18,221 bases of DNA from Clostridia bacterium (lineage in GTDB: Bacteria; Bacillota_A; Clostridia; UBA1212; UBA1255). Of the stretch, positions 1 to 18,221 are shown piece after piece. Position 1 is the stretch's first letter; every line of letters starts with the position of its first letter. The stretch spans positions 1-18,221 of the forward strand of contig JAFWZH010000326.1 in the NCBI GenBank assembly GCA_017522515.1, read 5' to 3'. The notes beneath the pieces were generated by a model, which saw only the letters and a program-made list of their open reading frames with translations, ran no database searches and had not been told where the DNA came from. Made by a program: the position numbers and the translations under genes.

Positions 1-222
1 GTTGGCATCTGTCGTCGTAACAGAAACATATTCATTTTTATATGTATATGTTATTTTTGTTGACGATGTGTCAATGATAAGATTTTTATTTCCTTCTGCA
101 AAAGATGTTACTCCCGTGTATGAACTCAGTTCTGCTGCCAATAGCGCATTAACCGAAGGCAACATACCGAATACCATCACAAAAACAAGTAACAAAGATA
201 GAAATTTCTTTATTCGTTCCAT
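1..222 (-). CDS. N-terminus of a second large secreted protein, paralogue of the upstream 1560-aa protein (partial)
   Basis: Translation on the minus strand from the ATG at 222 stays open for 74 codons to the window edge, so only the start of the gene is present. Residues 1-30 form a Sec signal peptide: charged MERIKK, a hydrophobic LSLLLVFVMVF core, and a probable cleavage site after ALLAA. Aligned by eye with the first 74 residues of the neighbouring 1560-aa protein it differs at 16 positions (about 78% identity), and the DNA includes a 60-base perfect match. A ribosome site (AAAGGAGC) lies 7-10 bases before the ATG. Only 16 bases separate this start from the upstream stop codon, so the two genes are probably co-transcribed. 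The function is unknown. The N-terminal part resembles the start of a beta-sandwich or carbohydrate-binding type domain, but too little is visible to say more. Confidence 0.85.
   Translation of the reverse strand, partial: MERIKKFLSLLLVFVMVFGMLPSVNALLAAELSSYTGVTSFAEGNKNLIIDTSSTKITYTYKNEYVSVTTTDAN
65..124 (-). repeat. Direct repeat copy A (60 bases, perfect)
   Basis: These 60 bases are identical to 4764-4823. They are the core of a longer, imperfect repeat (61-222 versus 4760-4921) covering the signal peptide and first mature residues of two tandem paralogous genes. Perfect DNA identity over 20 codons suggests recent duplication or gene conversion. Confidence 0.9.
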
Positions 223-238
223 AAAAGCTCCTTTAAAT

Positions 239-3200
239 TTAATAAATGCCGCCTTTGACAGCTATGTTTGTAACAGTTGTATTTGACAAATGAGTGAACA
301 TTGAGAAATAACCGTAATCATTAAAATTTCCATTAAGATAAGCAACGATATTATTATTTTTGTCCCAAATTGTCAAGCAATCTGCCTCTGCATCTACTGT
401 TACACTAAATACAAGATATTTCACTCCATCTACTATTATAAAGTATTTAATAAATTCTCCGTCATCAGTAACAACAATCTTTTGAGGATTAGAAATACTC
501 AGCGGTAATGAAACACTCGCAGAACGATTCGGCCAGCTCTCTGATCCCACATAAATACTTGCAGTAGTACCTGTAAACGCAGCCCATATTCCGCCTTTAT
601 CAGCATTTGGAGAATAATTTGCACCGGGAAGTCTTGCTCCGATAAAACATGCATTCCAATAGTTAGTGTCTGATGATGAAGGAGCTGTTGTTACAGTTGC
701 ATGGAATTCATATTGATTAAATCCAATGCCCGGCTGATATTTATACGGAACCGTATATAATTCTGCACCGCCTTGCCATGAGGTATTAGGTTTTGTATAT
801 AAAGTTTGTGCTCCTTCTACGGGAAGTGCATCTGTAGCTTCGGGTTTAGTATATACCTTAGTATTTGTCTGAGGCAATTTACTTGCATTAGGTCTGTAAG
901 CATACATAAAGCCGCTTATTCCCTCACGGAACGGTTGTTTGCCTGCTGTAACCTCTGTGCCTGTAGTACCTGTAATTCGGGCATTACTTCCGGCATCATA
1001 TCTTAAATACCTACCACTTGAATCTCTGCTACTTGCACAAAGGAATACATGCTTTGCATAGCCTGCAGAATCAGGATTTACAAATACAATATCGCCTGCT
1101 TTTAACGAAGAAACAGAAGTAATTTTTGCAAAATTATGTTCTTGACACCAAGGTACTAATGATCTTACTGTCATACCCTGAGTATAAATTTGGTCTGTAA
1201 AACCAACTCTATAAAGAACCCAGTCAACAAATCTGTCACAACTTACTATTTTTTCTGAGGGATTAATTGCTAAAGAAGGATCCAAAGCTCCCCAATTATA
1301 TGCAGGATTGATTTTTGCATCTCCATAAATAAATCTGTTTTTTCTCATATAATCAGAAACAACTTGTGCTTGCTCCATAATCATGTTGATAAGTTGGCTG
1401 TCTGTAATTGTATTTTCTTTAGGAGTTTCTGCAATATTAACAGCTGAAGTTCTTTCTGCAACAAAAAAGCGTTGATTTTCTGCTCCACTGTTTGTAAACA
1501 GCTGAATATTTGTTCCTTTATTATAATCCGCCATATAAACATCCATTACTAAGTTATCACAATGAGCCGGTCGGAATGTAAATGTTGTACCTTCATCATA
1601 CAGGAACCACTGCTGGGACAAATCGTCACTTATTGTTCCTGTAGAAACATTAGTTTCATCTACTTTGCCTGCGCCTTCTGCTAATAAAGCCTTTCCGGTA
1701 CTGCTATTAATAATCTTGTATGCACCATTTTCAATTCTGACAAATTTCCATATTTGTGAAGCAACAGTTGAGCTTGGTATGTCGAGTACCACGTTTGCAT
1801 TAGAAAGAGCCAGTGCCTTACCGCCAACTGTGATTTTGGCATAAAAGTTACTACCTATATCTGCAGGGGTCTTTGTACCAAATGTTGTCTTTTGGCTATT
1901 TATATAGTTTGCTGCAGCATCACCATATTTAATTATTGCTTTACTGAGATTTGCTAAATTCTCATCACTGTTATCTTTAGCTGTATATATATATGACTCA
2001 ATGCTGTATATATATGTACCGCTAATTGCCTTCCCTGCATCATCATACACAGTCATTTTAACAACTTCGCTCATTTGAGATACACCGAGGCCATCATATA
2101 CAAAGGAATATCTCTTAGAGTTTCCGGATGTTGATACAATTGTAAATTTATCAGATGTTATTGTGCCCAACAAAGAACCACTGTTATTTGTTACCCTTAC
2201 ACTAAATCCACTTGTTAATTCTGTGTCAAAGTATCCACGAATTGCAACCTTATTATCTAATAAAAGTCCCATACCTACCCATTTTGCCTTGTCATTTGCA
2301 TTTGCTGTAGGCGCTGATTTAACAGTTTTTAACTCTCTTAAAGAATCTGTTCCATTTTTCTTTTGTTCTGTTGTCAATTTGGCATTTACAAGCTCATTAG
2401 TCTTATAACCTCTGTAAATTTGTGAAGCAGATCCATAATTAAGCATGTCGACAAGCAATTTTCTAAAAGAGGGATCTGTAGTTGTAATTTTGTTGTAGAT
2501 ATATGTAGCAACACTGTATTCCTTTGTTCTACCGGAGCATAGCTCTCCGTCTTTAGTTGCTTTTAAAGTTGCATATATGGTATCATTCATCATTTGCGGT
2601 GTAACTTCTTCAAAGGCGAATGTATAATATGCCGCTCCGCTTATTGTAGTTGTACCTGCCTCAATTTTTCTTGTTTTACTGCCAAATGTTGCCTCAACAT
2701 AAGGATTTTTATATCCGGCATTATCCAAAATATCTTTATTTACCATATATTTAACAGTAATATCACTCGATAAGGAAAGAGATATACCGTCAAACTTAAG
2801 TGTAGAATCTTTAACCTTTACTTGTCCCGGAGCTGTAATTACTTTGCTCGTAACATCATTGCTGCCTGACAATGCACTACTAACATAAACGTTTACTGTA
2901 TTGTCACCAAGTTTTGCCTCAGGTTTAACTTGAAGCTCTACATACGCAATTATTCCCTTTGCGGTTGTATTTGTTGTGCCTGACCATGACAAAGTATAAG
3001 AAGATGAATTTTTAACCGCATTAAAGGCGGCACTTCCCATAACAATACCGTTTATTGCATTAACAGGAGCAAAAGATTTTGAATCCCAGCTAACATTTAC
3101 CGAAAGGCTCTTTAATCCTGCATTATTATTTAATACTACAGGTATCTTGATTGTTTTACCTATAACTGTCTCTGTATCATCGATATATATATGTGCAGTT

Positions 3201-4921
3201 TTTGCTGCATCTGTTACTGTAAAAGCAACCTCATTTCCACTAAACCTATTACCATCCATTATTATAGCAAAATAATCACCTGCGGAAAGTTTAGGGAATT
3301 TAACAGAATTTTGCTTATTTAAACTTATCTTATACATAGGCTCAACTTTACCTATACCGAAACCATATGAATCGCCCTTGTTATATATTGCAATAGATAA
3401 GTCTTTACTGTAAATTCTATCTCCGTAATTAATATTTGCAGTAATAATATCATTTTCGGTTACGGTATTAGAGCTTAAAGAAAATGAAGGATCAGCTGAA
3501 CCCACATTACTTATATAAATATTGTCTAAACAAATTGCTCTGTATCTTGAACCAATTGCCATAGACTTGACATAGGAAATCATTGCTTTATCTGTGCTGA
3601 CTCTTTCTATACCTTCTCCGTCAAAAATTGTTGCGTTTCTGTAATAACGCTCATTATAATCTATTACAGATGCAGACAATTGACGTGGGTTAGAATACTC
3701 AATATAAGCAAATACTTCTCCGTCAATCATAAATCTCATGCGGCCGTTAGCGTCATCAACAACCTTAAATTTATGAAATGCATCGCCAATGTTTTTTTCT
3801 AATGTATGTGTATACTTTATTTGAGAAAGTTTTCTGCTGATTTCATCATAAGTCATCACACATAACTCAATCTGCGTAGGATAAATATTTACACTCACAC
3901 CACTGTTACCAACAGAATTTTCGCCATCAAGTCCATTAGTCTCATAGAATTTATTTAAAGTAAAGTCGTGTTCATATCCGTAGTTAAATATAAATCCGGC
4001 AAAATGACCGGCTGTTTCATCCGGTTTAACATCTGCTGAGAAAGAAAATGCCGCATTATTATAAAAGTGTTTGTTTACTTGAATACTGTCATATTTAAGC
4101 CTCAGGTACTTATTTGAACCTTCTACAACAAATTTTGATTCTCCCGTGCCGCGACCAACTAAAATCTCTGAATTTAGATTTGTATTACTACCCACAAGTG
4201 AAAGGCCGTTTGTTACAGCAGCTTCTTGAAAATCATAAGAAATTACAGGTACAAAATGTAAACCGTGAGGAATAATATCTATTCTGCTTGGAGCAACATC
4301 ATTATATACACTGCAAAAAAGTGCATCATACTCTTTTGCTTGTGCAATACTATCAAAAAATCCGATATATGCAATGCTTATTGTTTTATTTAATGTAGCG
4401 TTTGCACCAACTCTCATAGAAGTAATTGTTGCATTACGTTGTGTTGACGTACCAACAGAAGTGTGATTAGCTCCCATTAATTCGTCAGATACAGTGTATG
4501 TTGTAAGATTCCACAAACCATCACATACCATTTTTGACGAAGAAAATAATCCCGCTGCCGATGGACCCCATCCACCTGCAGTCGAATCCGGATATAACCA
4601 CGCATTTGCAATTGATGTACCTGCAGTACCCTTGTATTTAATAGCCATAACCTTGTCCTTCATACTTGCATCAACAAGATTAACGGTAAAATACGGATCA
4701 GAAGCATTGGTAGTTGTTATCGTTACATATTCTTTATTATAAGTATATGTAATACCCGATGAGGATGTGTCAATGATAAGATTTTTATTTCCTTCTGCAA
4801 AAGATGTTACTCCCGTGTATGAATTCAGTTCTGCCGCCAGTAACACATTAGTCGAAGGCAACATACTAAATACCATCACAAAAACAAGTAACAACGAAAG
4901 AAATTTCGTTCCTTGTTTCAT
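239..4921 (-). CDS. 1560-aa secreted mosaic protein: beta-sandwich, cohesin-like, ricin-B-like and Cys/His hydrolase-like domains
   Basis: This is a secreted protein with a signal peptide (residues 1-30, cleavage near LLAA-EL). From N to C terminus I see: an unassigned beta-rich region (31-210); a concanavalin/LamG-like stretch (about 225-470, ending ICLDNIYIS); an Ig-like stretch (475-572); a cohesin-like domain (575-705, with GKTIKIPVVLNN, SWDSKSF and GIIAYVELQV); a Clostridia surface-protein domain (about 710-1007, with EYSVATYIYN and LLVDMLNYGSASQIY); a ricin-B-like lectin domain (1025-1155, with SQIWKF, SQQWFLY and NQRFFV as QxW-type repeats); a papain-like domain (1175-1345, candidate Cys1228, His1291, then Asp1309 or Asn1313); and a C-terminal beta-sandwich-like domain (1355-1560). 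No LPXTG motif, SLH domain or dockerin is visible, so surface attachment is unclear; sugar binding is possible. The start is fixed by AAAGGAGT upstream and by the signal peptide. It has its own predicted promoter. The catalytic reading is inferred from motif spacing only. Confidence 0.9.
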   Translation of the reverse strand: MKQGTKFLSLLLVFVMVFSMLPSTNVLLAAELNSYTGVTSFAEGNKNLIIDTSSSGITYTYNKEYVTITTTNASDPYFTVNLVDASMKDKVMAIKYKGTAGTSIANAWLYPDSTAGGWGPSAAGLFSSSKMVCDGLWNLTTYTVSDELMGANHTSVGTSTQRNATITSMRVGANATLNKTISIAYIGFFDSIAQAKEYDALFCSVYNDVAPSRIDIIPHGLHFVPVISYDFQEAAVTNGLSLVGSNTNLNSEILVGRGTGESKFVVEGSNKYLRLKYDSIQVNKHFYNNAAFSFSADVKPDETAGHFAGFIFNYGYEHDFTLNKFYETNGLDGENSVGNSGVSVNIYPTQIELCVMTYDEISRKLSQIKYTHTLEKNIGDAFHKFKVVDDANGRMRFMIDGEVFAYIEYSNPRQLSASVIDYNERYYRNATIFDGEGIERVSTDKAMISYVKSMAIGSRYRAICLDNIYISNVGSADPSFSLSSNTVTENDIITANINYGDRIYSKDLSIAIYNKGDSYGFGIGKVEPMYKISLNKQNSVKFPKLSAGDYFAIIMDGNRFSGNEVAFTVTDAAKTAHIYIDDTETVIGKTIKIPVVLNNNAGLKSLSVNVSWDSKSFAPVNAINGIVMGSAAFNAVKNSSSYTLSWSGTTNTTAKGIIAYVELQVKPEAKLGDNTVNVYVSSALSGSNDVTSKVITAPGQVKVKDSTLKFDGISLSLSSDITVKYMVNKDILDNAGYKNPYVEATFGSKTRKIEAGTTTISGAAYYTFAFEEVTPQMMNDTIYATLKATKDGELCSGRTKEYSVATYIYNKITTTDPSFRKLLVDMLNYGSASQIYRGYKTNELVNAKLTTEQKKNGTDSLRELKTVKSAPTANANDKAKWVGMGLLLDNKVAIRGYFDTELTSGFSVRVTNNSGSLLGTITSDKFTIVSTSGNSKRYSFVYDGLGVSQMSEVVKMTVYDDAGKAISGTYIYSIESYIYTAKDNSDENLANLSKAIIKYGDAAANYINSQKTTFGTKTPADIGSNFYAKITVGGKALALSNANVVLDIPSSTVASQIWKFVRIENGAYKIINSSTGKALLAEGAGKVDETNVSTGTISDDLSQQWFLYDEGTTFTFRPAHCDNLVMDVYMADYNKGTNIQLFTNSGAENQRFFVAERTSAVNIAETPKENTITDSQLINMIMEQAQVVSDYMRKNRFIYGDAKINPAYNWGALDPSLAINPSEKIVSCDRFVDWVLYRVGFTDQIYTQGMTVRSLVPWCQEHNFAKITSVSSLKAGDIVFVNPDSAGYAKHVFLCASSRDSSGRYLRYDAGSNARITGTTGTEVTAGKQPFREGISGFMYAYRPNASKLPQTNTKVYTKPEATDALPVEGAQTLYTKPNTSWQGGAELYTVPYKYQPGIGFNQYEFHATVTTAPSSSDTNYWNACFIGARLPGANYSPNADKGGIWAAFTGTTASIYVGSESWPNRSASVSLPLSISNPQKIVVTDDGEFIKYFIIVDGVKYLVFSVTVDAEADCLTIWDKNNNIVAYLNGNFNDYGYFSMFTHLSNTTVTNIAVKGGIY
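242..1411 (-). repeat. C-terminal Cys/His plus beta-sandwich module, copy 1 (coding repeat)
   Basis: This stretch encodes residues 1171-1560 of the mosaic protein and is paralogous to 5083-6252 in the lipoprotein gene. In the best-conserved 154 residues (from YMRKNRF to MYAYRP) I count 34 differences, about 78% identity. Some DNA runs are nearly identical, such as the coding for VLYRVGFTDQ. The rest of both proteins is unrelated, so a whole module has been duplicated or shuffled. Confidence 0.85.
1901..2533 (-). repeat. Clostridia surface-protein domain, internal copy matching the right-edge gene
   Basis: This encodes residues 797-1007 of the mosaic protein. It aligns over its whole length with the partial protein at 17577-18221: both have EYSVATYIY, LVDML-YGSA-Q-Y, AKWVGM, KVAIRGYFD, YDGL, QMS, TVYSIESY-like and a closing FGDA or YGDA motif. 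It is a protein-level repeat and divergent at the DNA level. Confidence 0.8.
4764..4823 (-). repeat. Direct repeat copy B (60 bases, perfect)
   Basis: Identical to 65-124. It lies at codons 33-53 of the 1560-aa gene, just after the signal-peptide region. Confidence 0.9.
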
Positions 4922-4984
4922 AAAAAAGACTCCTTTTTTTAAATTTCAGCTTAGATTTATTAAAAAAGCATTATAATTAAAGCA

Positions 4985-5013
4985 ATTTTATATCATATTC
5001 ACCTATAAGTCAA
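4985..5013 (-). promoter_or_regulatory. Predicted sigma-A-type promoter of the mosaic protein gene
   Basis: On the minus strand TTGACT (5013-5008) and TAAAAT (4990-4985) are separated by 17 bases, with a TG-containing spacer. The leader would be about 55-60 bases and ends in AAAGGAGT. A TATAAT at 4975-4970 is a possible second -10 element but has no good -35. The -35 sits inside the end of the preceding terminator's T-tract. Confidence 0.6.
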
Positions 5014-5055
5014 CAAAAAAACTCTGAGACTCATATCATCATGAATCTCAGAGTT
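5012..5055 (-). terminator. Intrinsic terminator of the lipoprotein gene
   Basis: Read on the minus strand, arms AACTCTGAGA and TCTCAGAGTT pair perfectly over 10 bases. They extend by one mismatch and four more pairs (TCAT/ATGA) to a 6-base loop, and seven or more T follow. The hairpin lies about 25 bases after the lipoprotein stop codon. Confidence 0.9.
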
Positions 5056-5079
5056 CTCAGACTATTATTATTCTAAAAA

Positions 5080-7008
5080 TCAATTTGCGCCTTTTATTGA
5101 TATGTTAGAAATTGTAGAATTGGCAATGTGGTTCCATGTTGAGAAATATCCTGATGTATTAAATGAACCCACACCAATATATGCAACAGTATTATTTCCA
5201 TCCCAAACAACTACCTTATCGTTCACCGAATCCACTGTCACCGTTAAAATCAATTTTCTGGTGTTGCTTGATGAAACATGATAATACTTAATCATATCGC
5301 CATTATCAACAACAATGATTTTCTGTGCAGTAGAAACATCAGCCGGTAACGAAACACTGGTATCGCTTATATTCCAAGGACTACCCGTTCCAAAATAAAC
5401 AGTAGCCTTTGTTCCGGTAAACGCAACCCATACACCGCCTTTACTTGTCGGATCAGAGCTCATATTGGGAATTCTTGCTCCAACATAACATGAGTTCCAA
5501 TAGCTTTTATCGCTCGTAGGAGGAGCAGACTGCAAAGTCAAATGTAATTCATATTGATTGTAACCTTTACCGGGCTCATACTTGTAATTAAATCCATACA
5601 AGGATACGCCGCCATCCCATGTCTTGCCTGAATTATTAAATACTTCTGTTGCGCCGGATTTAGGAACTGCTGCCGTAGTAGAAGGCTTATTGTAAATAGA
5701 AGCATTTGTTGTAGGCATTTTGTCTACGCAAGGCCTGTATGCATACATAAACTGGCTGATGCCCTCTCTAAAAGGCTGTTTGCCGCGTGTAACCTCTGTA
5801 CCTGTTGTACCCGTTATTCTGGCATCGCTGCCGGCATCATATCTAAGCCACTTACCATCAGAACCTTTACTGCTTGCACACATAAATACATGTCTTGCCC
5901 AACCGCCCGGATGAGGATTAACAAATACAATATCACCTGCCTGAAGGGAATTAACATTTGTAATCTTCTTGAAACCATATTCTTCGCACCACTCGTCAAG
6001 GTTACCAACCGTCATACCCTGTTTATACATCTGGTCAGTAAAACCAACTCTATAAAGAACCCAGTCAATAAGTCTATCACAGCTTACAATTTTCTCAGAA
6101 GGATTAATTGCCTTTGATGCATCCAATGCACCCCAATTATATGCAGGGTTAATTTTTGCATCGCCATATACAAATTTGTTAGCTCTCATATAGTCAGTAA
6201 CTTTTTGTGCCTCTGCCATGAGATTTTTAACAAGCTGTTCATTCTCTATAGTAGGCTTAGATGTCACTGCCGGCGTTGACACAGGCTTCGGAGTCTTAAT
6301 TGACGCACCGCTGTCAGATACTAAAGTAATGGCACTTATCGCAATATTATTGCCGGCATTATCCTTAGTAATAAAAAGCTCTCCACTGTATGAAGAATCA
6401 ATATAAAGCTCTATATCTCTAACGCCGTCGGCCCAAAAAGCACCATCGCTGTTTACAAGAAAGTCAGAAGAAATCGTTTTGCCGGACGCATCCTTAATAT
6501 GTATTTCATCATTACTGATGTTAGCATTCGGGTCAGCACCATACGAAATCACAATGCTTGAAACCTCGCTTAAATCGTAGCTGCCAATTGACACACCGGC
6601 TGAATTTGTTATTAACAACACATTGGCTGTATACTTAGCGGCTGAAAAATCAACTGCATCGGGAAGCGAAGAAACATCAAGCTCTGTTTTCTTTACTGTC
6701 GGCTTTGACGTAGGTTTTAAAGTATTTGTCGGCTTCGCAGTTGATGTAGGGTTAGCTGTATTATTATCTTTTTCAACTGTAGGCTCTGCTGTTTGCTCTA
6801 CAAAGGGCTCATCGGTAGCCTGCTCTGTCGCCTGCGCTGTCGCTACGGAAGTTGGTGATGAACTACCTTCTGCTGCGTCGCTAATATTTGCAACAGGTCC
6901 TTTTGTTTTTTTGCTTTCCTCTGTATCCTCAGATTTACATCCAAACATAGACAAGGCAACAATCAAACATATTAAAATGCATATTATGGATTTGATCTTA
7001 GAACTCAT
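5080..7008 (-). CDS. 642-aa lipoprotein with Thr/Pro-rich linker, CBM-like domain, Cys/His hydrolase-like domain and C-terminal beta-sandwich
   Basis: The start is the ATG at 7008, seven bases after a strong GGAGG; an in-frame GTG at 7035 lies upstream of that ribosome site and is rejected. The signal peptide ends in LSMFGC, an acceptable though non-ideal lipobox, so Cys24 is probably lipidated and membrane-anchored. A low-complexity linker rich in Thr, Ser, Pro and Glu (about 25-110) could span the cell wall. Residues 119-236 look like a CBM- or jelly-roll-type domain. A second short Pro/Thr linker follows. Residues 258-427 form a papain-like domain with candidate Cys310 (VSCDR), His373 (ARHVFMC) and Asp391 or Asp395, and residues 435-642 form a beta-sandwich-like domain. 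The last two domains are shared with the 1560-aa protein. The substrate is unknown; peptidoglycan or a surface glycoconjugate is a guess. It has its own promoter and terminator. Confidence 0.9.
   Translation of the reverse strand: MSSKIKSIICILICLIVALSMFGCKSEDTEESKKTKGPVANISDAAEGSSSPTSVATAQATEQATDEPFVEQTAEPTVEKDNNTANPTSTAKPTNTLKPTSKPTVKKTELDVSSLPDAVDFSAAKYTANVLLITNSAGVSIGSYDLSEVSSIVISYGADPNANISNDEIHIKDASGKTISSDFLVNSDGAFWADGVRDIELYIDSSYSGELFITKDNAGNNIAISAITLVSDSGASIKTPKPVSTPAVTSKPTIENEQLVKNLMAEAQKVTDYMRANKFVYGDAKINPAYNWGALDASKAINPSEKIVSCDRLIDWVLYRVGFTDQMYKQGMTVGNLDEWCEEYGFKKITNVNSLQAGDIVFVNPHPGGWARHVFMCASSKGSDGKWLRYDAGSDARITGTTGTEVTRGKQPFREGISQFMYAYRPCVDKMPTTNASIYNKPSTTAAVPKSGATEVFNNSGKTWDGGVSLYGFNYKYEPGKGYNQYELHLTLQSAPPTSDKSYWNSCYVGARIPNMSSDPTSKGGVWVAFTGTKATVYFGTGSPWNISDTSVSLPADVSTAQKIIVVDNGDMIKYYHVSSSNTRKLILTVTVDSVNDKVVVWDGNNTVAYIGVGSFNTSGYFSTWNHIANSTISNISIKGAN
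5083..6252 (-). repeat. C-terminal Cys/His plus beta-sandwich module, copy 2 (coding repeat)
   Basis: Paralogous to 242-1411. Every candidate catalytic residue and the spacing between motifs is kept in both copies: INPAYNWGALD, SCDR, GDIVFVNP, HVF(L/M)CASS and RYDAGS. Confidence 0.85.
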
Positions 7009-8361: not shown

Positions 8362-10455
8362 TCAAATATCCTTTAACATACCAAGTTTATCAAACCAATA
8401 GAGAACGTGAGAAGCAAAACCGTGATTGCAACTTGCATAATCGCTGTCATTTTCCCAAAGCGTACCTGTTTTTTCTGCCATATAGTAAAAATATCCTTCG
8501 ATATTACGAAGCAAGTCTTCTTTATCACCGTACATCGAAATTAAATCCAATCGGAGATAATTACCTATAAATGCATTTGCAAAATAAATCTCCGGCCATT
8601 TCCCCGTCTGTTTACGTTCGAAACCAAAATCATACAAAAGACAATTCCACAACTCCGGAAAAGTTTCAGGCGTTGCTACTCCTGTATGGAAAGCGTAATA
8701 CTGACAACTTTCTGTATACTCACCTGAGAGCTTAAGCTCCCCGTCAACTCTATATGCATTATCACAGAAAAAGCCCTTGCTTGTGTAAGACATTCTCCTT
8801 ATTGTTTCTTGCAGGCTCTCTGCCTCTTTGATTAATGATTCATCTCCGTAGAGCTTTGCTGTAATCAATTTGATTTTAGCATAAAGCATATTTGTGGGGA
8901 AACTCACATCCTGTACAAGGTCATTTGATTTGCTCCACTCTATAAATACCCATGATTTAAGCTTTTCCAAAAGGCCATGTTCATTCTCAAAACCCTTAAA
9001 ATAATTTATCAAACCATAAACACGACTTTTAGCCGCTTCAATAAGTTGCAAATCGCCTGTTCTCTCATAATACTCATTAAGCTCTACTATAAACCACATA
9101 GCCCAATTCGGAATGAACACACCGTCATAATGGTCAGCGGGATAACACATAGGAAGCATTCCGTCAGGGATACATTTAAAGGAATCAGGCAAAATATAAT
9201 TTTCAAGGAAATTACGTTCTATTTCAGATTTTCCTGTAAGCACACGCTCAACGCGAGAAGTGAAAAAGCTGTCGCAAAGCCATCCTGCTCTTTCTCTTGA
9301 CGGACAATCCATATAAATATCAAAAGTATTTTGTCTGTACGTTTCTACTGCCGCGTTGAATATAGCAACGAGCTTTTCGTTTACGGAAATGAGCTCTTTT
9401 TTTACGTTTGGTGCGCCTACTCGTCTTAAATGAACGTTTGATATCTTAGAATTTGCATTTTTAACATAAATCCTTATATATCTGTATGTGTAAGGCTCTG
9501 CAGAAAGAAAAGAAATTTTACCGGCATCAGCTTTAATGATTATAACATTCGCAGATGTTAATCTGACAAAATTGATTTCTTCTCCTTGCATAATTTCATC
9601 AAAAACAATAACGATTTCACCTGCTGTTTCAAGTTCTGCATCAAATCCTATAAGACCCGTAAGGTTTTTACCCATATCAAATGTTGCATAAGAATTTGAT
9701 TCCAGTAAAACAGAATTTGTTTTTTCGTTAATTTTCTCATAAGTAACAGGAGTTATTTTTTGAGCTTCAACAGTAGAAAAAACGTCTAATTCATTTTTTA
9801 AATAGCCTTTGAGCTGTGGTCCTATATTAGAAATAGATCTGTCATTATAATAGTTCTTTTTATCAGAAACAGTAAATTGTCCTTTTTGAATAAGCCCTTG
9901 AGGAATTTCCTTCTCGTAATCTCCGTAAAATATACCTCTGGGTAAAAAATTATAGTTTTGCATTACAGATAATTTTACTTCACTGTACTGCTCTACTGTA
10001 TAATCATATACCTCTGTAAATGGTCTTTGAAAAGAATATCGCTGTACCTTTTGAATCTTGCCAAGCCATTCTGCAGCAGAAAAAGTGCTGCCGTTTTCGT
10101 CTGTATGTGCAATAATACCGTTTTCTGTTTCTATTTCAGCACACAAAAATGAAGGCTGGTCTAAATGATAAAAGCTGTTGGCAGCATATCCGAAAACTAT
10201 AATTTTTATCTCGTTATTTGCTTTATCTAAGCAAATAGGAAGCTCATCTACACGGAAATATCCATGGGCAGCTCTGGCAGGTCCCACTGCCAAAAAATCG
10301 CCGTTAATATACACGTTGTAATAAGATGAACCCGTAATGCGCAAAACAGCCCTTGAAGCTTGCGGACATTCCGTCTTAAAAACTAATGTAACATTCATCT
10401 CATTTTCTCTGTTTTCTGCCCAAACGGGTTGTGCTTTTTTAAACAAGTTTTTCAT
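8362..10455 (-). CDS. GH78-family (alpha-L-rhamnosidase-like) glycoside hydrolase, cytoplasmic
   Basis: This 697-aa protein has an N-terminal beta region (1-350, with SYYNVYINGDFLAVGPARAAHGY typical of the rhamnosidase N domain) and then an (alpha/alpha)6-barrel catalytic domain. The GH78 signature DCPSRERAGWLCD is at residues 383-395. Its Asp383, Glu388, Trp392 and Asp395 have the same spacing as the active-site residues described for Bacillus BsRhaB. Glu668 (TLWEN) followed by NHGFAS matches the family's C-terminal WE...NHYAFG region. No signal peptide is present, so it should cleave intracellular glycosides, perhaps rhamnosides or related deoxy sugars. The start overlaps the upstream PLP-enzyme gene by 17 bases and has AGAGGA ten bases before it. 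GH78 contains distantly related subfamilies, so sugar specificity is not certain. Confidence 0.85.
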   Translation of the reverse strand: MKNLFKKAQPVWAENRENEMNVTLVFKTECPQASRAVLRITGSSYYNVYINGDFLAVGPARAAHGYFRVDELPICLDKANNEIKIIVFGYAANSFYHLDQPSFLCAEIETENGIIAHTDENGSTFSAAEWLGKIQKVQRYSFQRPFTEVYDYTVEQYSEVKLSVMQNYNFLPRGIFYGDYEKEIPQGLIQKGQFTVSDKKNYYNDRSISNIGPQLKGYLKNELDVFSTVEAQKITPVTYEKINEKTNSVLLESNSYATFDMGKNLTGLIGFDAELETAGEIVIVFDEIMQGEEINFVRLTSANVIIIKADAGKISFLSAEPYTYRYIRIYVKNANSKISNVHLRRVGAPNVKKELISVNEKLVAIFNAAVETYRQNTFDIYMDCPSRERAGWLCDSFFTSRVERVLTGKSEIERNFLENYILPDSFKCIPDGMLPMCYPADHYDGVFIPNWAMWFIVELNEYYERTGDLQLIEAAKSRVYGLINYFKGFENEHGLLEKLKSWVFIEWSKSNDLVQDVSFPTNMLYAKIKLITAKLYGDESLIKEAESLQETIRRMSYTSKGFFCDNAYRVDGELKLSGEYTESCQYYAFHTGVATPETFPELWNCLLYDFGFERKQTGKWPEIYFANAFIGNYLRLDLISMYGDKEDLLRNIEGYFYYMAEKTGTLWENDSDYASCNHGFASHVLYWFDKLGMLKDI

Positions 10456-11734
10456 GATTAATAAGTCCTCTGTTAATTAATGTTTGTAATGACATAAGAA
10501 TTCCAAGTTTAGCATTATGCCATGTAAGTCCCCCTTGAAAAAACACTGCATAAGGCTCTCTCATAGGGCCGTCTGCACTAAGTTCAATAGATGAACCTTG
10601 TATAAATGTTCCTGCTGCCATTATGACTTCTGAATCATACCCCGGCATCGCCCAAGGTTCAGGTGTGACATAGCTGTCTACAGGAGCTGCTGCTTGGATT
10701 CCTACGCAAAAGGCTTTCAATGCCTCCGGAGATTTTAACTCGATAGCCTGAATTATATCAGCTCTTGGTTCACTACTGTGAGGAACTGTACGAAAACCGA
10801 GTTTTTCATAGATATATGCGGCAAAAACAGCACCCTTTAAAGCACCTGCAACTACATTAGGTGCTAAGAAAAGTCCTTGATAAAATGACGTCATAACACC
10901 GAGATTAGCTCCTACTTCTTGTCCTAAACCGGGGGCACTTAATCTATAGGCGCATCTGTCGACGCATTCTTGTGTTCCGCATATATAACCACCGATTGGG
11001 GCCAAACCGCCTCCAGGATTTTTAATTAAGGAACCAACAGCCATATCTGCGCCAACGTGTGTGGGCTCTAAATATTCCGTAAATTCACCGTAGCAGTTAT
11101 CTACCATACAAATAATGTCAGGCTTAATTGATTTAATAAACCTTATAAGCTCACCGATTTGTTTTACAGAGAAACTGGGACGCGTCTTATAACCCTTTGA
11201 ACGTTGTATTTCGGCCATTTTCGTCTTTTCATTGATGGCTGCACGTATTGCATCGTAATCAAACGTACCATCTTCTTTAAGTTCAACTTGACGATAAGAT
11301 ACTCCGTATTCTTTTAAAGAACAGGGTGACGGACGGATTCCTATAACCTCTTCTAATGTGTCATATGGTCCGCCTGCAGGACATAATAATTCATCTCCCG
11401 GCAAAAGATTTGCAGACAACGCAACTGTAAGAGCGTGTGTTCCGCATGTAATTTGAGGACGAACCAAAGCAGCCTCCGTGCCAAAACATTCTGCGTAAAT
11501 TTTTTCTAATGTATCACGTCCGTAATCATTATATCCATATCCGGTAGTCGCCGCGAAACAAGTAGCATTTACCCTGTTATTATGCATAGCAAGAGTTACT
11601 TTTGCCTGATTAAATTCAGCAACTTCATCAATTTCTTTAAATCTTTGCTCTAAAGCTGCCTCTGCTTCCTTCGCAATTGAAAGTACTTTGGGACTGATTC
11701 CAAGTTGCCTATATATATCACATAAATTATTCAT
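10439..11734 (-). CDS. PLP-dependent methionine gamma-lyase-like protein (YnbB / 'aluminium resistance' family)
   Basis: This 431-aa protein is a fold-type I PLP enzyme of the family annotated as cystathionine beta-lyase-like or aluminium resistance protein (Pfam Met_gamma_lyase). The Schiff-base lysine is Lys238 in GSLIKNPGGG, and Asp212 in MVDNCYGEFTE would hold the PLP ring nitrogen. GYGYNDYGRDTLE (residues 65-77) and RPQITCGTHAL (92-102) are family hallmarks. Length is usual for the family and no key residue is missing. The physiological reaction is poorly known; carbon-sulfur lyase activity is expected. It follows the second permease gene by 17 bases and overlaps the GH78 gene, so it belongs to the transporter operon. 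In Bacillus the homologue lies in a different setting (near glnR), so this placement is unusual. Confidence 0.9.
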   Translation of the reverse strand: MNNLCDIYRQLGISPKVLSIAKEAEAALEQRFKEIDEVAEFNQAKVTLAMHNNRVNATCFAATTGYGYNDYGRDTLEKIYAECFGTEAALVRPQITCGTHALTVALSANLLPGDELLCPAGGPYDTLEEVIGIRPSPCSLKEYGVSYRQVELKEDGTFDYDAIRAAINEKTKMAEIQRSKGYKTRPSFSVKQIGELIRFIKSIKPDIICMVDNCYGEFTEYLEPTHVGADMAVGSLIKNPGGGLAPIGGYICGTQECVDRCAYRLSAPGLGQEVGANLGVMTSFYQGLFLAPNVVAGALKGAVFAAYIYEKLGFRTVPHSSEPRADIIQAIELKSPEALKAFCVGIQAAAPVDSYVTPEPWAMPGYDSEVIMAAGTFIQGSSIELSADGPMREPYAVFFQGGLTWHNAKLGILMSLQTLINRGLINHEKLV

Positions 11735-11751
11735 TATATCACCTGATAAAA

Positions 11752-12747
11752 TTATCTGTCTTCACGATAATAATTCATACCTACCGCAGCAGGTTTATTA
11801 TTTTTCTTCTTTGTGATAGAAGATACAACGAGCACAACTGCTGTAATTATAAAAGGAAGTGCTTGCATAAATTGAGGCGGGATTTTTGAAAGCCAACCTA
11901 AGAGTTTAGGGAACGCATTTGATAAAGAACCACCATACACTTGAAGTGTATTAAACAATCCAAACACCAATGTACCTACAATTGCTGCAACTGTATTCCA
12001 ATTCGCAAAAATAACGAGTGCTATTGAAATCCAACCATATCCGTTTATCCAACATTTACTTCCTTCAAAGCTACCGGAAAGATTAACTGCCATAAGCAAA
12101 CCGCCTATACCCATTATTCCGGAGCCAATCATAAGATGTATATATTTGTAAAGCGTAATGTTTACACCAACAGCATCTGCAGAAGCAGGATTTTCTCCTA
12201 TTGCACGTATTCTTAAACCGGGCTTTGTATATTTAAAATACCACCATACGAGAGCAGCAATAATTATTCCAAGATAAATAAGAATGCTATGTGAAAACAA
12301 AGCCGGTCCAATAACGGGAATCTTACTGAGAAGAGGTATGTTTAATGACTCTGTTCCTCTCTTAAAACCCTCTGTAGAAAGCATATCAGGCCATTTACCG
12401 GAAGCTTTAAAACCATTACCTATAAAAAAGTAAAGTCCCAATCCAAACGTTGTAATCGTAAGACCTGTAACATTTTGGTTTGCTTGCAACGTTACGGTTA
12501 AAAAGGCAAAAAGTAAACCGCATAATGCTGCACAAATAAAGGAAGCAAGTATTCCGACAAAAATATTGTCAAATGCACAACCCATAAGTAAGCCGCCTAT
12601 TCCGCCGATAGCCATGGTACCTTCAACACCGAGATTAAGGCTGCCTGACTTTTCCGTCACTATCTCGCCCACCGTACCGTAAAGGAGTGCCATGTTGTAC
12701 TTTATAACAGTAAATAAAAAAGTAGTTAATACTGCGATTGCGCTCAT
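11752..12747 (-). CDS. nupQ: Nucleoside ABC transporter permease, NupQ-like
   Basis: This 331-aa integral membrane protein has about eight to ten hydrophobic segments and the features of the BPD_transp_2 family: LNLGVEGTM at residues 37-45 and the cytoplasmic coupling loop GLRIRAIGENPASADAVGV at 177-195, which docks on the ATPase. It pairs with the larger permease encoded just upstream; the ATGA overlap of stop and start gives tight translational coupling and about 1:1 synthesis. The TGA of the neighbour lies inside the start region, and AAAAGGAGGAG is the ribosome site. By family and gene order it matches B. subtilis NupQ (YufQ) of the guanosine/nucleoside importer. The symbol is by similarity, and the solute could be another nucleoside-like compound. 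Confidence 0.85.
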   Translation of the reverse strand: MSAIAVLTTFLFTVIKYNMALLYGTVGEIVTEKSGSLNLGVEGTMAIGGIGGLLMGCAFDNIFVGILASFICAALCGLLFAFLTVTLQANQNVTGLTITTFGLGLYFFIGNGFKASGKWPDMLSTEGFKRGTESLNIPLLSKIPVIGPALFSHSILIYLGIIIAALVWWYFKYTKPGLRIRAIGENPASADAVGVNITLYKYIHLMIGSGIMGIGGLLMAVNLSGSFEGSKCWINGYGWISIALVIFANWNTVAAIVGTLVFGLFNTLQVYGGSLSNAFPKLLGWLSKIPPQFMQALPFIITAVVLVVSSITKKKNNKPAAVGMNYYREDR

Positions 12748-13898
12748 ACTGTCTCCTCCTTTTCAGATGTGTTTTTATTTGATTTATTGCTCTTGCGGAT
12801 TACAATTTTAAATCTGATGAAGAAGTCAGCGGCAAGTATTATGAATAAAATTATTCCTTGAAGAAGGTCTGCAAAGTGGCTGTCTACATTATTGGCACTT
12901 ACAGAAGCAGTAACGCAGCCGCACTGTAAAACAGTAATCAATGCAGTTACAATAACAATACCTATCGGATTAAGTTTTGCAAGCCAAGCTACAATAATAC
13001 CTGTCCAACCTACGTCGTTCGTTATCGATGTCGATAACGATTCTACACTTGAAACTCTTAAAGCACCGGCAGCACCTATTAAAGCTGCAGATAAAAACAT
13101 TGTCCTGCAAATAATTTTATTTACCTTCATACCTGAATATTTAGCCGTATTTATACTATCTCCAACGACTGCAATTTCATATCCGTGTTTTGTACGCGTT
13201 AAATAAACAAAAATAAATGCAACCAACAGTAATGTAAAAATAAGGGAAATTTCCAAAGAAAAATCACCTATTTGAATTTTAAACATTCTGCCGTTTTCGG
13301 GGATTTTAGCAAATTGCGGACGCTCAGAATCCGTTTTAAGGAATATATTCCATTTTGCCTTTGTTTCACCGAAAAACGTCATAATATAAAGAGCAATATA
13401 GTTTAGCATCAATGTAAATAATGTCTCATCCGTGCCGAATTTAACATTTAAAAGCGATGTAAGCAAACCAATTAATCCGCCAACAACGGCGCCTGCTAAA
13501 GTCATCAGTATAATTGTTACAAATTGATTAGTAGATGCAGGAACCATAAAAGCTACAGTTGCACCAGCGAGAGCACCTAACAAAAACTGGCCCTCACCAC
13601 CTATATTCCAAAACTTCATTTTGAATGCCAACGACAAAGCAAGAGAAGTAATTAGAAGAGGAACAAATTCTTTTATATAGTTTTCATATTGCAAATATGC
13701 AAACCTGTTGTTTATTGTGCCAAGTGTAAACATCTGTTTGTAATATTCTCCGGGATTTGCATCAAGAGAGAAAAGTAGTATGGCACCTACTCCAAGTGCT
13801 ATAACAACAGACGCTGCATAAAGCAAAGCAATATATCTTTTCTTTAAGCCTTCCCTTTTTACTATACGAATCAGAGGTTCTTTAGTGTTTTTACGCAT
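12744..13898 (-). CDS. nupP: Nucleoside ABC transporter permease, NupP-like
   Basis: This 384-aa permease has a basic N-terminus, the first membrane segment near residues 22-44 and the family mark NIGGEGQFLLGAL at 98-110. The coupling loop is at 239-257 (GYEIAVVGDSINTAKYSGM) and the C-terminal tail is charged (KSNKSNKNTSEKEETV). The start is the ATG at 13898 because AGAGGAGGAAG lies just before it. A longer in-frame reading from 13949 would run through the end of the ATPase gene and has no such site. The gene overlaps the ATPase stop by 8 bases. With NupQ-like and NupO-like neighbours it forms the importer core in the membrane. Confidence 0.87.
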   Translation of the reverse strand: MRKNTKEPLIRIVKREGLKKRYIALLYAASVVIALGVGAILLFSLDANPGEYYKQMFTLGTINNRFAYLQYENYIKEFVPLLITSLALSLAFKMKFWNIGGEGQFLLGALAGATVAFMVPASTNQFVTIILMTLAGAVVGGLIGLLTSLLNVKFGTDETLFTLMLNYIALYIMTFFGETKAKWNIFLKTDSERPQFAKIPENGRMFKIQIGDFSLEISLIFTLLLVAFIFVYLTRTKHGYEIAVVGDSINTAKYSGMKVNKIICRTMFLSAALIGAAGALRVSSVESLSTSITNDVGWTGIIVAWLAKLNPIGIVIVTALITVLQCGCVTASVSANNVDSHFADLLQGIILFIILAADFFIRFKIVIRKSNKSNKNTSEKEETV

Positions 13899-15483
13899 TG
13901 TCTTCCTCCTCTGCATTTTGTATTCTGCTGTCCTTTGCAATTCCGGCAATCTTACCGTTTACTTCGGAAATATTCTTTGCTCCTGTCATCATAAGGCCCA
14001 ATTCTTCTTTTGTTGTCTTGTGTGCGTGAACAACTCCCATAAGTTTGCCATGGCACAAAACCATAATCTTATCACACAAAGCAAGCATAACGTCCAAGTC
14101 TTCTCCAACAAACAGAATACCGACACCATTTTTCTTTTGTTCATTGAGTATATCATAAATGGCATAAGAAGAATTGATGTCAAGACCTCTTACAGGGTAT
14201 GCTGTAATAATAACATTTGGACCTGCGTCAATTTCACGTCCAACTAAAACTTTTTGAACATTACCACCGGAAAGACGTCTTACAGGAGTCTCTGTAGATG
14301 GTGTTACAATACCAAGTCTCTTTACAATTTCTTCTGCCTTAGCTTTAGCTGCATTTCTGTCAACAAAGGGAGATTTCTTATTGTCACGATATGTTTTTAA
14401 AATCATATTATCCGTGATAGAAAGTGACGGTGCCAAACCCATGCCCAACCGGTCCTCCGGTATAAAGCTCATGGATATACCCTTTTCTATAATAGCTTTG
14501 GGAGCAAGTCCTACAATATTTTCACCTTTATGATTAATTTGACCGCTTTCGATTTTTCTGAGGCCTGCAATTGCTTCGCAAAGCTCCTTTTGACCACATC
14601 CGGCAATACCGGCAACTCCGAGAATTTCGCCACCGCGAATGTAAAAATTTACATTTTCTATAGCGTCGGCTCCTTCGTCATTTTTTATTGTAAGATTTCT
14701 GATTTCAAGGAGTGGTCTGTCAAACTCGGTAACAGGTCTTTGAATATTAAGGTTGACCTTGCGGCCTACCATTAAATCAGTAAGCTCTTGCTCATTTGTT
14801 TCACTTGTGTTTACTGTATCTATATACTCGCCCTTACGTAATATCGTTACGCGGTCGCTGATTTCCATAACTTCGTTAAGCTTGTGTGTGATAATAATTA
14901 TCGAATGTCCTTCTTCCTTCATCTTTCTGAGTACGTCAAAAAGCTTTTGAATTTCTTGGACAGTAAGAACTGCTGTTGGTTCATCGAGAATTATAACCTT
15001 TGCCCCGTAATAAAGAACTCGTAATATTTCTAGTGTCTGTTTTTCACTGACAGACATATTCGAAACAAGTTTTTTAGGATTAAATTCGAAACCGAATTTG
15101 TCACTTATTTCTGAAATTTTGTTATATCTGTCTTTTTTTAATATAACGCCTGTGTTTTCTGTGCCCATCCAAATATTATCAGCTGCCGAAAACACTTCTA
15201 CAAGCTTAAAATGCTGATGTACCATTCCTATACCGAATTTCTTTGAATCCTCCGGTGAATGGATAGAAACCGGCACACCGTCTACCTTAATGGTACCACT
15301 GTCCGGTTTGTAAATGCCGGAAAGCATATTCATAAGAGTTGTCTTTCCGGAACCATTTTCGCCCAGCAGGGCGAGAATCTCGCCCTGCTTGACGTTAAGG
15401 TTTATGTTCTTGTTTGCGACAACACTACCAAATGTCTTGGTAATGTTCTCAAGTTCAATCGCATAAATATTTTGATCTTTCAT
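13891..15483 (-). CDS. nupO: Nucleoside ABC transporter double ATP-binding protein, NupO-like
   Basis: This 530-aa protein has two fused ABC domains, as in sugar and nucleoside importers. Domain 1 has a full Walker A (GENGSGKTT, 41-49), Q-loop Gln90, signature SNMSVSEKQ (141-149), Walker B VIILDE (Glu168) and switch His200. Domain 2 is degenerate: Walker A-like GIAGCGQK (292-299) lacks the usual Lys-Thr pair, the signature LSGGNVQ (404-410) is intact, and the Walker B acidic position is Tyr (ITAYPVRGLD), where relatives usually have Gln. This implies one hydrolytic site, formed by the domain 1 Walker motifs and the domain 2 signature. AAAGGATC precedes the ATG, 27 bases after the BMP gene. 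It should energise purine-nucleoside uptake. Confidence 0.92.
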   Translation of the reverse strand: MKDQNIYAIELENITKTFGSVVANKNINLNVKQGEILALLGENGSGKTTLMNMLSGIYKPDSGTIKVDGVPVSIHSPEDSKKFGIGMVHQHFKLVEVFSAADNIWMGTENTGVILKKDRYNKISEISDKFGFEFNPKKLVSNMSVSEKQTLEILRVLYYGAKVIILDEPTAVLTVQEIQKLFDVLRKMKEEGHSIIIITHKLNEVMEISDRVTILRKGEYIDTVNTSETNEQELTDLMVGRKVNLNIQRPVTEFDRPLLEIRNLTIKNDEGADAIENVNFYIRGGEILGVAGIAGCGQKELCEAIAGLRKIESGQINHKGENIVGLAPKAIIEKGISMSFIPEDRLGMGLAPSLSITDNMILKTYRDNKKSPFVDRNAAKAKAEEIVKRLGIVTPSTETPVRRLSGGNVQKVLVGREIDAGPNVIITAYPVRGLDINSSYAIYDILNEQKKNGVGILFVGEDLDVMLALCDKIMVLCHGKLMGVVHAHKTTKEELGLMMTGAKNISEVNGKIAGIAKDSRIQNAEEEDNA

Positions 15484-17576: not shown

Positions 17577-18221
17577 TTAATTAGCATATGCGTTTGAAGC
17601 ATCACCAAAAACAATCATAGCCTTTACAAGATCAGCAAGTCCGCTAACCGTACTGCTTTGTGTTGAGTATACATAAGACTCTATACTGTATACTGCTGTA
17701 CCGCTTAACTTATTTCCGGCACTGTCACATACAGTTAATTTCACGGTTTTGCTCATTTGTGCAAAATTAAGACCATCATATATGAATGATACTACAGGAG
17801 TATTTTCAGGACCTGTTACCTCAGTGAAATCCTCTGCTGTAATTTTGTCATATACGTTACCGTTTTCGTCTGCAACTTCTACATATACGCCATCCTTTGA
17901 AGGAACATCAAAATATCCTCTGATTGCAACTTTGCTGTCAAGATAAAGTGACATTCCTACCCATTTTGCACTGTCAGAAGCTGTAGCTGACGGAATATTC
18001 TTTACTGTAGATAAATTTCGCATAGAAGCTGTTCCCCATGCTGCCTGCTCTGCTGTTAACTTTGAATCTACAAGGTTGCTTGTGTTGTATTTTGTATATA
18101 CTTGAGCTGCAGAACCGTAGCGAAGCATATCAACGAGCATTGTTCTGAATTCTGCATTTGTCGTAGAACCGAGCATTGAATAAATATATGTTGCAACACT
18201 GTATTCTACTGTTTCGCTAGA
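17577..18221 (-). CDS. C-terminal part of a large surface-protein-like gene (partial, start outside window)
   Basis: The frame is open from the window edge for 214 codons to TAA at 17577. An internal ATG at 18176 is not the start, because the homologous domain begins earlier (VEYSVATYIYS). The whole visible part matches residues 797-1007 of the 1560-aa mosaic protein, with conserved LVDMLRYGSAAQVY, AKWVGM, KVAIRGYFD, YDGLNFAQMS, YSIESYVYS and a closing MIVFGDASNAYA. This domain is common at the ends or middle of large secreted proteins of gut Clostridia, and its function is unknown. Here it ends the protein: no lectin, Cys/His module, dockerin or LPXTG follows. Secretion is inferred from the paralogue, because the N-terminus is not visible. 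Confidence 0.85.
   Translation of the reverse strand, partial: SSETVEYSVATYIYSMLGSTTNAEFRTMLVDMLRYGSAAQVYTKYNTSNLVDSKLTAEQAAWGTASMRNLSTVKNIPSATASDSAKWVGMSLYLDSKVAIRGYFDVPSKDGVYVEVADENGNVYDKITAEDFTEVTGPENTPVVSFIYDGLNFAQMSKTVKLTVCDSAGNKLSGTAVYSIESYVYSTQSSTVSGLADLVKAMIVFGDASNAYAN

Follow-up and report, generated by a model that had tools for sequence, protein, structure and literature searches.

Two neighboring genes on the reverse strand of an 18,221-nucleotide stretch of DNA from a gut Clostridia bacterium (assembly GCA_017522515.1, contig JAFWZH010000326.1; hereafter the window) encode secreted proteins that end in a shared module. We consider this module to be probably a cysteine hydrolase that has diverged within the NlpC/P60-CHAP group and is followed by an optional beta-sandwich; it would cut an amide in peptidoglycan and act as an exchangeable 'head'. 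The genes are open reading frames with translations for P0001, a 1560-aa secreted mosaic (239..4921), and P0002, a 642-aa lipoprotein (5080..7008; 651 aa if an upstream GTG is used as start). P0001 contains a signal peptide (assigned by eye), an N-domain, a LamG-like stretch (by eye and without Pfam support), a cohesin, an X region, a ricin-type lectin, the papain-fold head and a ConA-like domain, in that order. P0002 has a lipobox at Cys24 (by eye) and a linker modeled with low confidence (residues 25-250), followed by the same head and ConA-like domain.

At the sequence level the likeness of the two proteins is far beyond chance, with 236 of 439 residues identical by BLASTP (54%, pair E = 4e-162). 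The original prediction, made by a model from the letters alone, had described a single module of ~390 residues with 34 differences over the best 154. The minimum over all 154-residue windows is indeed exactly 34, and the motifs it listed (SCDR(F/L)(V/I)DWVLYRVGF, AGDIVFVNP, KHVF/RHVF and YDAGS(N/D)ARI) are each found in both proteins. Elsewhere the proteins are unrelated, as it had said, the next BLASTP match beyond the module having an E-value of 0.34. The shared stretch was correctly recognized, but consists of two domains: a catalytic-type domain of ~170 aa and a separable beta-sandwich of ~190 aa. The head is 74% identical (128/174) between P0001 (residues 1172-1345, 887..1408) and P0002 (residues 258-430, 5719..6237), its assignment in P0001 drawing on this identity and on family alignments. 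Identity falls to 45% (95/213) for the sandwich region (P0001 1346-1560, 242..886; P0002 450-642, 5083..5661).

Fold matches listed for the full P0002 model covered the beta-sandwich, and a viral list had CHAP and NlpC/P60 entries among others of different kinds; the head was therefore predicted and searched alone, and the comparison extends to the families that these searches listed. The head model (m6508093f7cc7, P0002 residues 250-434) had a pLDDT of 96 and a pTM of 0.92. All 50 structural neighbors listed by VIA-align belong to the NlpC/P60-CHAP group, judged by title and in a few cases by recall. The best Foldseek match was CHAP, and Foldseek against the PDB gave no match at E ≤ 0.001. 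In the predicted structure, Cys61 (Cys310 of P0002) opens a helix (61-71) and His124 (His373) lies within a strand (122-128).

Conservation was assessed in the best 120 of 172 family members (90% identity clusters at E ≤ 0.001), a set gathered through common short words and with a profile built from the pattern-derived loci described below. Cys310, His373, Asp391 and Asp359 of the GD motif are present in 120/120, so that homologues lacking the Cys or His are absent from this set; Arg425, which closes the last strand of the model, is kept in 118 with gaps in the other two, and Tyr281 in 119. The order of Cys, His and polar residue had been taken as papain-like, in agreement with the predicted structure, the structural comparison and a CHAP profile comparison (hhalign probability 95.1, the best profile match). 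For the third residue in P0001, which follows Cys1228 and His1291, Asp1309 and Asn1313 had both been proposed; Asp1309 is the better candidate because its column is Asp in 120/120 whereas column 1313 varies. The spacing from His to Asp is mostly 17-18 residues (15-19 in all but 6 of 199 rows); in those six it is 12, the spacing of MepS/Spr. Papers are cited here by PMC number, from excerpts of their text. A GD motif on strand 1 paired with an Arg on strand 5 is given as a mark of the group (PMC10318531), and an oxyanion Tyr is named for a Ruminococcus flavefaciens module (PMC3573020). The head shows the group's predicted papain-like fold, a conserved Cys, His and polar residue, and the GD Asp and Arg; Tyr281 may be equivalent to Tyr71 of that module by position only. 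These predicted and conserved features support placing the head among the papain-fold enzymes of NlpC/P60-CHAP type, as a divergent, new and unnamed family.

No Pfam, NCBIfam or PHROGs model gave the head a score over its cut-off or a convincing E-value. Because no curated family in these libraries reaches its cut-off, we call the family undescribed, as had been proposed, and no strong match to a well-known family occurred. Against PF00877 (NlpC/P60; cut-off 23 bits) the scores, where bits were given, were 14.1 for P0001, 17.0 for the P0002 head and, in a further case, 19.8, with a best E-value of 0.0012 among the 79 of 84 domain copies kept once near-duplicates were removed. The PF05257 (CHAP) cut-off of 26 bits was not reached; P0001 and P0002 were unmatched at E ≤ 0.1, and 5 of the 79 heads matched at E < 1 (best E = 0.0035). 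The active-site motif of NlpC/P60 is DCSG, which was not found in the head; S-C-D-R stands there instead in 120/120, and is peculiar to the family together with RYDxGSxxR. In a redundant 128-row alignment (84 locus copies and 44 proteins, locus rows below 50 bits dropped) the first motif reads (S/A)C(D/N)R. The loci had been found with patterns covering RYDxGSxxR and xGDxxF, so the invariance of these two motifs in that alignment is partly built in; Cys310, His373, Tyr281 and Arg425 stood in no pattern. DSHCT matched 25/79 copies at E < 1 (best 0.0047; 0.00083 in P0102) and was rejected as a short match near the GDIVF strand, sub-cut-off where shown. Sequence searches gave nothing significant for the head in the PDB, and no match in phage records (query P0002) or plasmid records (query P0054).

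By model comparison, the second domain is predicted to have a ConA/CBM66-like fold. Among 52 homologues, 13 match at least 98% of the query region, while the other 39 match 42-57% and lack the sandwich. The C-terminal binding domain that had been suggested corresponds to this predicted ConA-like beta-sandwich, which is optional. The ConA-like fold is common to many carbohydrate binders and also occurs in SPRY domains, so that binding is only a guess. On the C-terminus of P0002, CBM6 (PF03422) reached 15.0 and 18.5 bits, short of its 28.9-bit cut-off. The sandwich, an optional addition to the head, may bind carbohydrate.

A genome scan located relatives of the head at 65 loci in genomes of Clostridia, Clostridiales or Oscillospiraceae type that had been assembled from metagenomes, with titles mostly naming ruminant gut sites, and at five viral loci. 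Six related genomes gave 12, 11, 5, 10, 7 and 3 head matches, two of the 12 lying in one gene and the last 3 in one protein. We scanned 81 full-length relatives, including both window proteins and five viral ones, for partner domains (Pfam E ≤ 0.001). These carry ricin lectin (6), CHAP (6), PG_binding_1 (5), CBM9 (3), PG_binding_3 (3), dockerin (2), melibiase (1) and a LysM-like domain (1). SH3_3 (P0068), T4SS_pilin (P0165) and dockerin (P0087, P0126) exceeded their Pfam cut-offs. A scan covering 46 of 54 relatives placed CBM9 on 13 of the 46 at E ≤ 0.1. Two viral proteins scanned singly contain CHAP and PG_binding_1 and matched endolysin PHROGs, the CHAP being a stretch separate from the head. 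A CHAP-type protein from the goat gut with peptidoglycan-binding and SH3 domains is reported to hydrolyze cell walls (PMC5146660). The viral endolysin-like, CHAP, pilin, SH3, dockerin and ricin contexts of the relatives favor a peptidoglycan endopeptidase or amidase activity, unproven as that is.

Other arrangements of the head were observed. In P0165, P0083 and P0102 it lies behind a membrane segment (the T4SS-pilin match exceeded the cut-off in P0165 alone), and this type is possibly a conjugation-linked wall hydrolase. One locus (L005, 7842-16907) has five tandem head genes, two of which (490 and 510 aa) coincide in length and place with dockerin-matching frames; another (L051, 4506-10346) encodes a protein of 1947 aa in which three heads are combined with eight stretches of ricin lectin; a third (L054, 5421-10325) encodes a 1635-aa protein with both a CHAP domain and a head. 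In two sets of related genomes, all of them draft assemblies, canonical NLPC_P60 was present in 6 members of the set of 30 and in 5 of the set of 6; 18 of the 30 contained CHAP. With NLPC_P60 counts this unequal, and from drafts, we dropped the idea of the new family as a substitute for canonical NlpC/P60.

P0001 carries the head on a larger chassis. Its single cohesin (approximately residues 580-702, 2816..3184) matched PF00963 with 27.1 bits (cut-off 24.1, E = 5.5e-6) when the piece was scanned alone, and was not reported at E ≤ 0.1 in the full-length scan; its ricin-type beta-trefoil lectin domain (1055-1141, 1499..1759) matched PF14200 with 55.1 bits (cut-off 25.6). A search with the whole of P0001, which scored the 7991 candidates sharing most words, returned 25 proteins. 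In fourteen of these, P0175-P0188, the LamG-like, cohesin, X and ricin segments are all present; 13 have the N-domain too, and a cohesin is precomputed for 8. A fifteenth, P0189, has the N-domain, LamG-like stretch, X region, head and beta-sandwich, without cohesin or lectin. Nine of the fourteen have a papain-fold head. In two of these, P0175 (1560 aa, 97% identical to P0001) and P0176, the beta-sandwich follows, while the other seven, like a chassis protein at locus L053, have the head without it. The five without this head are P0178, P0185 and P0186, with an SGNH-esterase-like end, P0179, with another C-terminus, and P0188, which stops at the lectin. The SGNH-like heads were judged by eye from an IGNS motif, Pfam giving a sub-threshold GDSL match for P0178 only (E = 0.056).

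Identities to P0001 differ between chassis and head. The L053 protein is 47-74% identical over the chassis segments and 41% over the head, and P0177 is 57-73% and 36% identical, respectively; P0183 is more distant over the chassis (35-56%) and closer over the head (51%). In the head tree, P0001 groups with P0002 and the relatives at L001, L002 and L003 (100/100), and the L053 head falls in another starred clade. Because chassis and head identities cross, replacement of the head fits better than uniform descent, suggesting, as far as identities and the head tree can tell, that heads have been exchanged between proteins; unequal rates are a possible alternative source of the crossing. The optional sandwich, the cohesin and ricin lectin of P0001 and this apparent exchange of heads go beyond the original prediction. 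At L001 (7971-9275), a P0002 relative turns at approximately nucleotide 960 from a 92-100% match to P0002 to a 90-98% match to P0001 (60-base blocks), and the locus ends there; this switch could be either gene conversion or an assembly chimera.

Dockerin matches were found in all six related genomes searched (2, 3, 4, 31, 1 and 45) and cohesin matches in five. From these and from its own cohesin, we infer that P0001 may dock.

These observations can be combined into a mechanism. Cys310, at the start of its helix, would attack an amide, for which a stem peptide of peptidoglycan is the likeliest site, with His373 activating the Cys, Asp391 orienting the His and Tyr281 helping to form the oxyanion hole. 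P0002 would present the head at the cell surface as a lipoprotein. On P0001 the head would belong to a secreted chassis that also has a cohesin and a ricin lectin, and could thereby join a cohesin-dockerin assembly. Recombination would move the head between chassis and lipoproteins.

Several findings weigh against a peptidoglycan hydrolase of this kind. The head had no Foldseek match in the PDB at E ≤ 0.001, and an hhalign comparison with 13 canonical NlpC/P60 domains was weak, with a probability of 3.4 and a score of 20.9 against a shuffle maximum of 17.6. The viral copies are remote (34-35% identity, on a long branch), and the PG_binding counts (5 and 3 of 81) could all be viral, so wall-binding partners represent few independent cases. 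An N-terminal hydrophobic segment is missing in 46 of 120 relatives, many with a Cys-pair tail, by a crude hydrophobicity test that counts fragments as 'none'. P0129, P0135, P0136, P0150 and similar proteins form a branch of ~310 aa that keeps the invariant triad, has no obvious signal peptide and ends in a tail with a Cys-pair, by eye resembling a zinc ribbon; this branch looks cytosolic and does not suit a peptidoglycan role. The GH78-like and DLH neighbors of P0002 have no obvious signal peptide and look cytosolic by eye, so the neighborhood is no pointer to the cell wall. A lone cohesin is no proof of a cellulosome, since the nearest related genome (G001) has only 2 dockerin matches beside 5 cohesin matches, cohesin gave no match in G005, and both families also occur in the control, Methanosarcina acetivorans. 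SGNH-type heads and a cellulosome-like setting would suit plant cell walls too, and the R. flavefaciens module is described, in the excerpt, as without protease activity (PMC3573020).

The strongest alternative puts the head, still a papain-fold cysteine peptidase or amidase, in a cellulosome-like system, where its targets would be proteins of feed or of plant cell walls (or esters) and not peptidoglycan. The cohesin and ricin lectin of the P0001 chassis, its three relatives with an SGNH-esterase-like head (by eye), and the dockerins, CBM9 (at the lenient threshold above) and melibiase fusion on head relatives all fit this proposal. It also has precedents in the peptidase-bearing scaffoldins ScaO and ScaP (PMC6780208, PMC5590126) and in a dockerin-borne NlpC/P60-like module for which the excerpt reports no detected protease activity (PMC3573020). 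We nonetheless regard it as unlikely, given that the head's relatives have partners of viral endolysin-like, SH3 and pilin type and that its structural neighbors belong to the peptidoglycan-enzyme group. Less likely still is a non-wall amide or ester substrate (a lipid, a gamma-glutamyl compound or a modified protein), with the viral and pilin contexts as side branches. The large cytosolic-looking branch with its Cys-pair tail would fit such a substrate, and SCDR and RYDxGSxxR differ from the canonical DCSG, so substrate recognition may differ; the window copies, however, appear by eye to be secreted or lipoproteins, and a lipobox or hydrophobic N-terminus was present in 74/120 relatives by the crude test. 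That the papain fold here only binds and does not catalyze, as in RipD (among the structural-neighbor titles) or DUF1175 (PMC10318531), has precedent in the losses known in this fold group and is very improbable with Cys, His and Asp invariant in 120/120.

Within the peptidoglycan interpretation, we tentatively raise a broader and rather doubtful possibility: an extracellular, cohesin-linked modular system of these gut Clostridia in which lectin and cohesin chassis bear interchangeable hydrolase heads, this family among them, against the walls of other bacteria or the cell's own surface, resembling a cellulosome but directed at bacterial, not plant, walls.

The window holds further chassis-like genes on the reverse strand. 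Directly downstream of P0001, at 1..222, a second P0001-like chassis protein begins, making tandem chassis genes. The window edge cuts it after 74 residues, and it is 81% identical to the chassis protein of L053 across 53 aa. At the other end (17577..18176, frame open at the window edge), another mosaic protein is represented by its C-terminus, which contains the P0001 X region without a head and is 44-51% identical to mosaic proteins at L055, L053 and L009. Genes adjacent to P0002 are 94-98% identical to those of a water-buffalo rectum assembly (L001), and the window is therefore probably from a close relative of that assembly. A GH78-like gene, a methionine gamma-lyase gene and two permease genes (8362-13949, reverse strand) also stand beside P0002 relatives at L001, L003 and L004. 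We considered an operon role based on the GH78, DLH, methionine gamma-lyase and ABC neighbors and drew no function from it, GH78 and DLH looking cytosolic.

The head resembles NlpC/P60 enzymes (PF00877, MEROPS C40; CwlO, SagA, Cg1735 and MepS) in predicted fold, Cys at a helix start, His on a strand, Tyr and GD motif, and differs in its (S/A)C(D/N)R motif, Asp as third residue and RYDxGSxxR. CHAP (PF05257; LysGH15, LysK) is its best profile and Foldseek match and adjoins it in endolysin-like proteins, yet few heads match CHAP even weakly and the two are separate in viral proteins. The R. flavefaciens NlpC/P60_2 module RflaF_05439 is likewise a papain-fold module tied to the cohesin-dockerin system of a rumen bacterium, with a Cys/His/polar triad and a Tyr, but it has a Cys/His/Gln triad and sits on the dockerin side (PMC3573020). 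Its structure code is printed as 4EZY in that paper and as 4EYZ in PMC10318531, which assigns it to DUF2272; this structure was not among the three PDB sequences matched by the head profile at E ≤ 10. The scaffoldins ScaO and ScaP of C. alkalicellulosi, A. cellulolyticus and B. cellulosolvens combine cohesin and peptidase modules in one chain, and unlike P0001 also bear dockerin together with modules such as PPC or Rhs (PMC6780208, PMC5590126); the excerpts name no peptidase type and report neither a ricin lectin nor an exchange of heads. Scaffoldin peptidases and a dockerin-borne NlpC/P60-like module are thus already published (PMC6780208, PMC5590126, PMC5301203, PMC12484212, PMC3573020, as excerpted). 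In the open-licence papers searched, we found no description of the head family or of a cohesin-ricin-papain chassis. What is new is a family within a known superfamily, together with this unusual architecture.

The head family is a sizeable addition, without a curated model, to the peptidoglycan-hydrolase-like papain fold, and such a head is placed on a cohesin-bearing chassis. If active, the heads would be new endolysin-type catalytic domains for testing, and would suggest that cell-wall hydrolases make use of cohesin-dockerin display.

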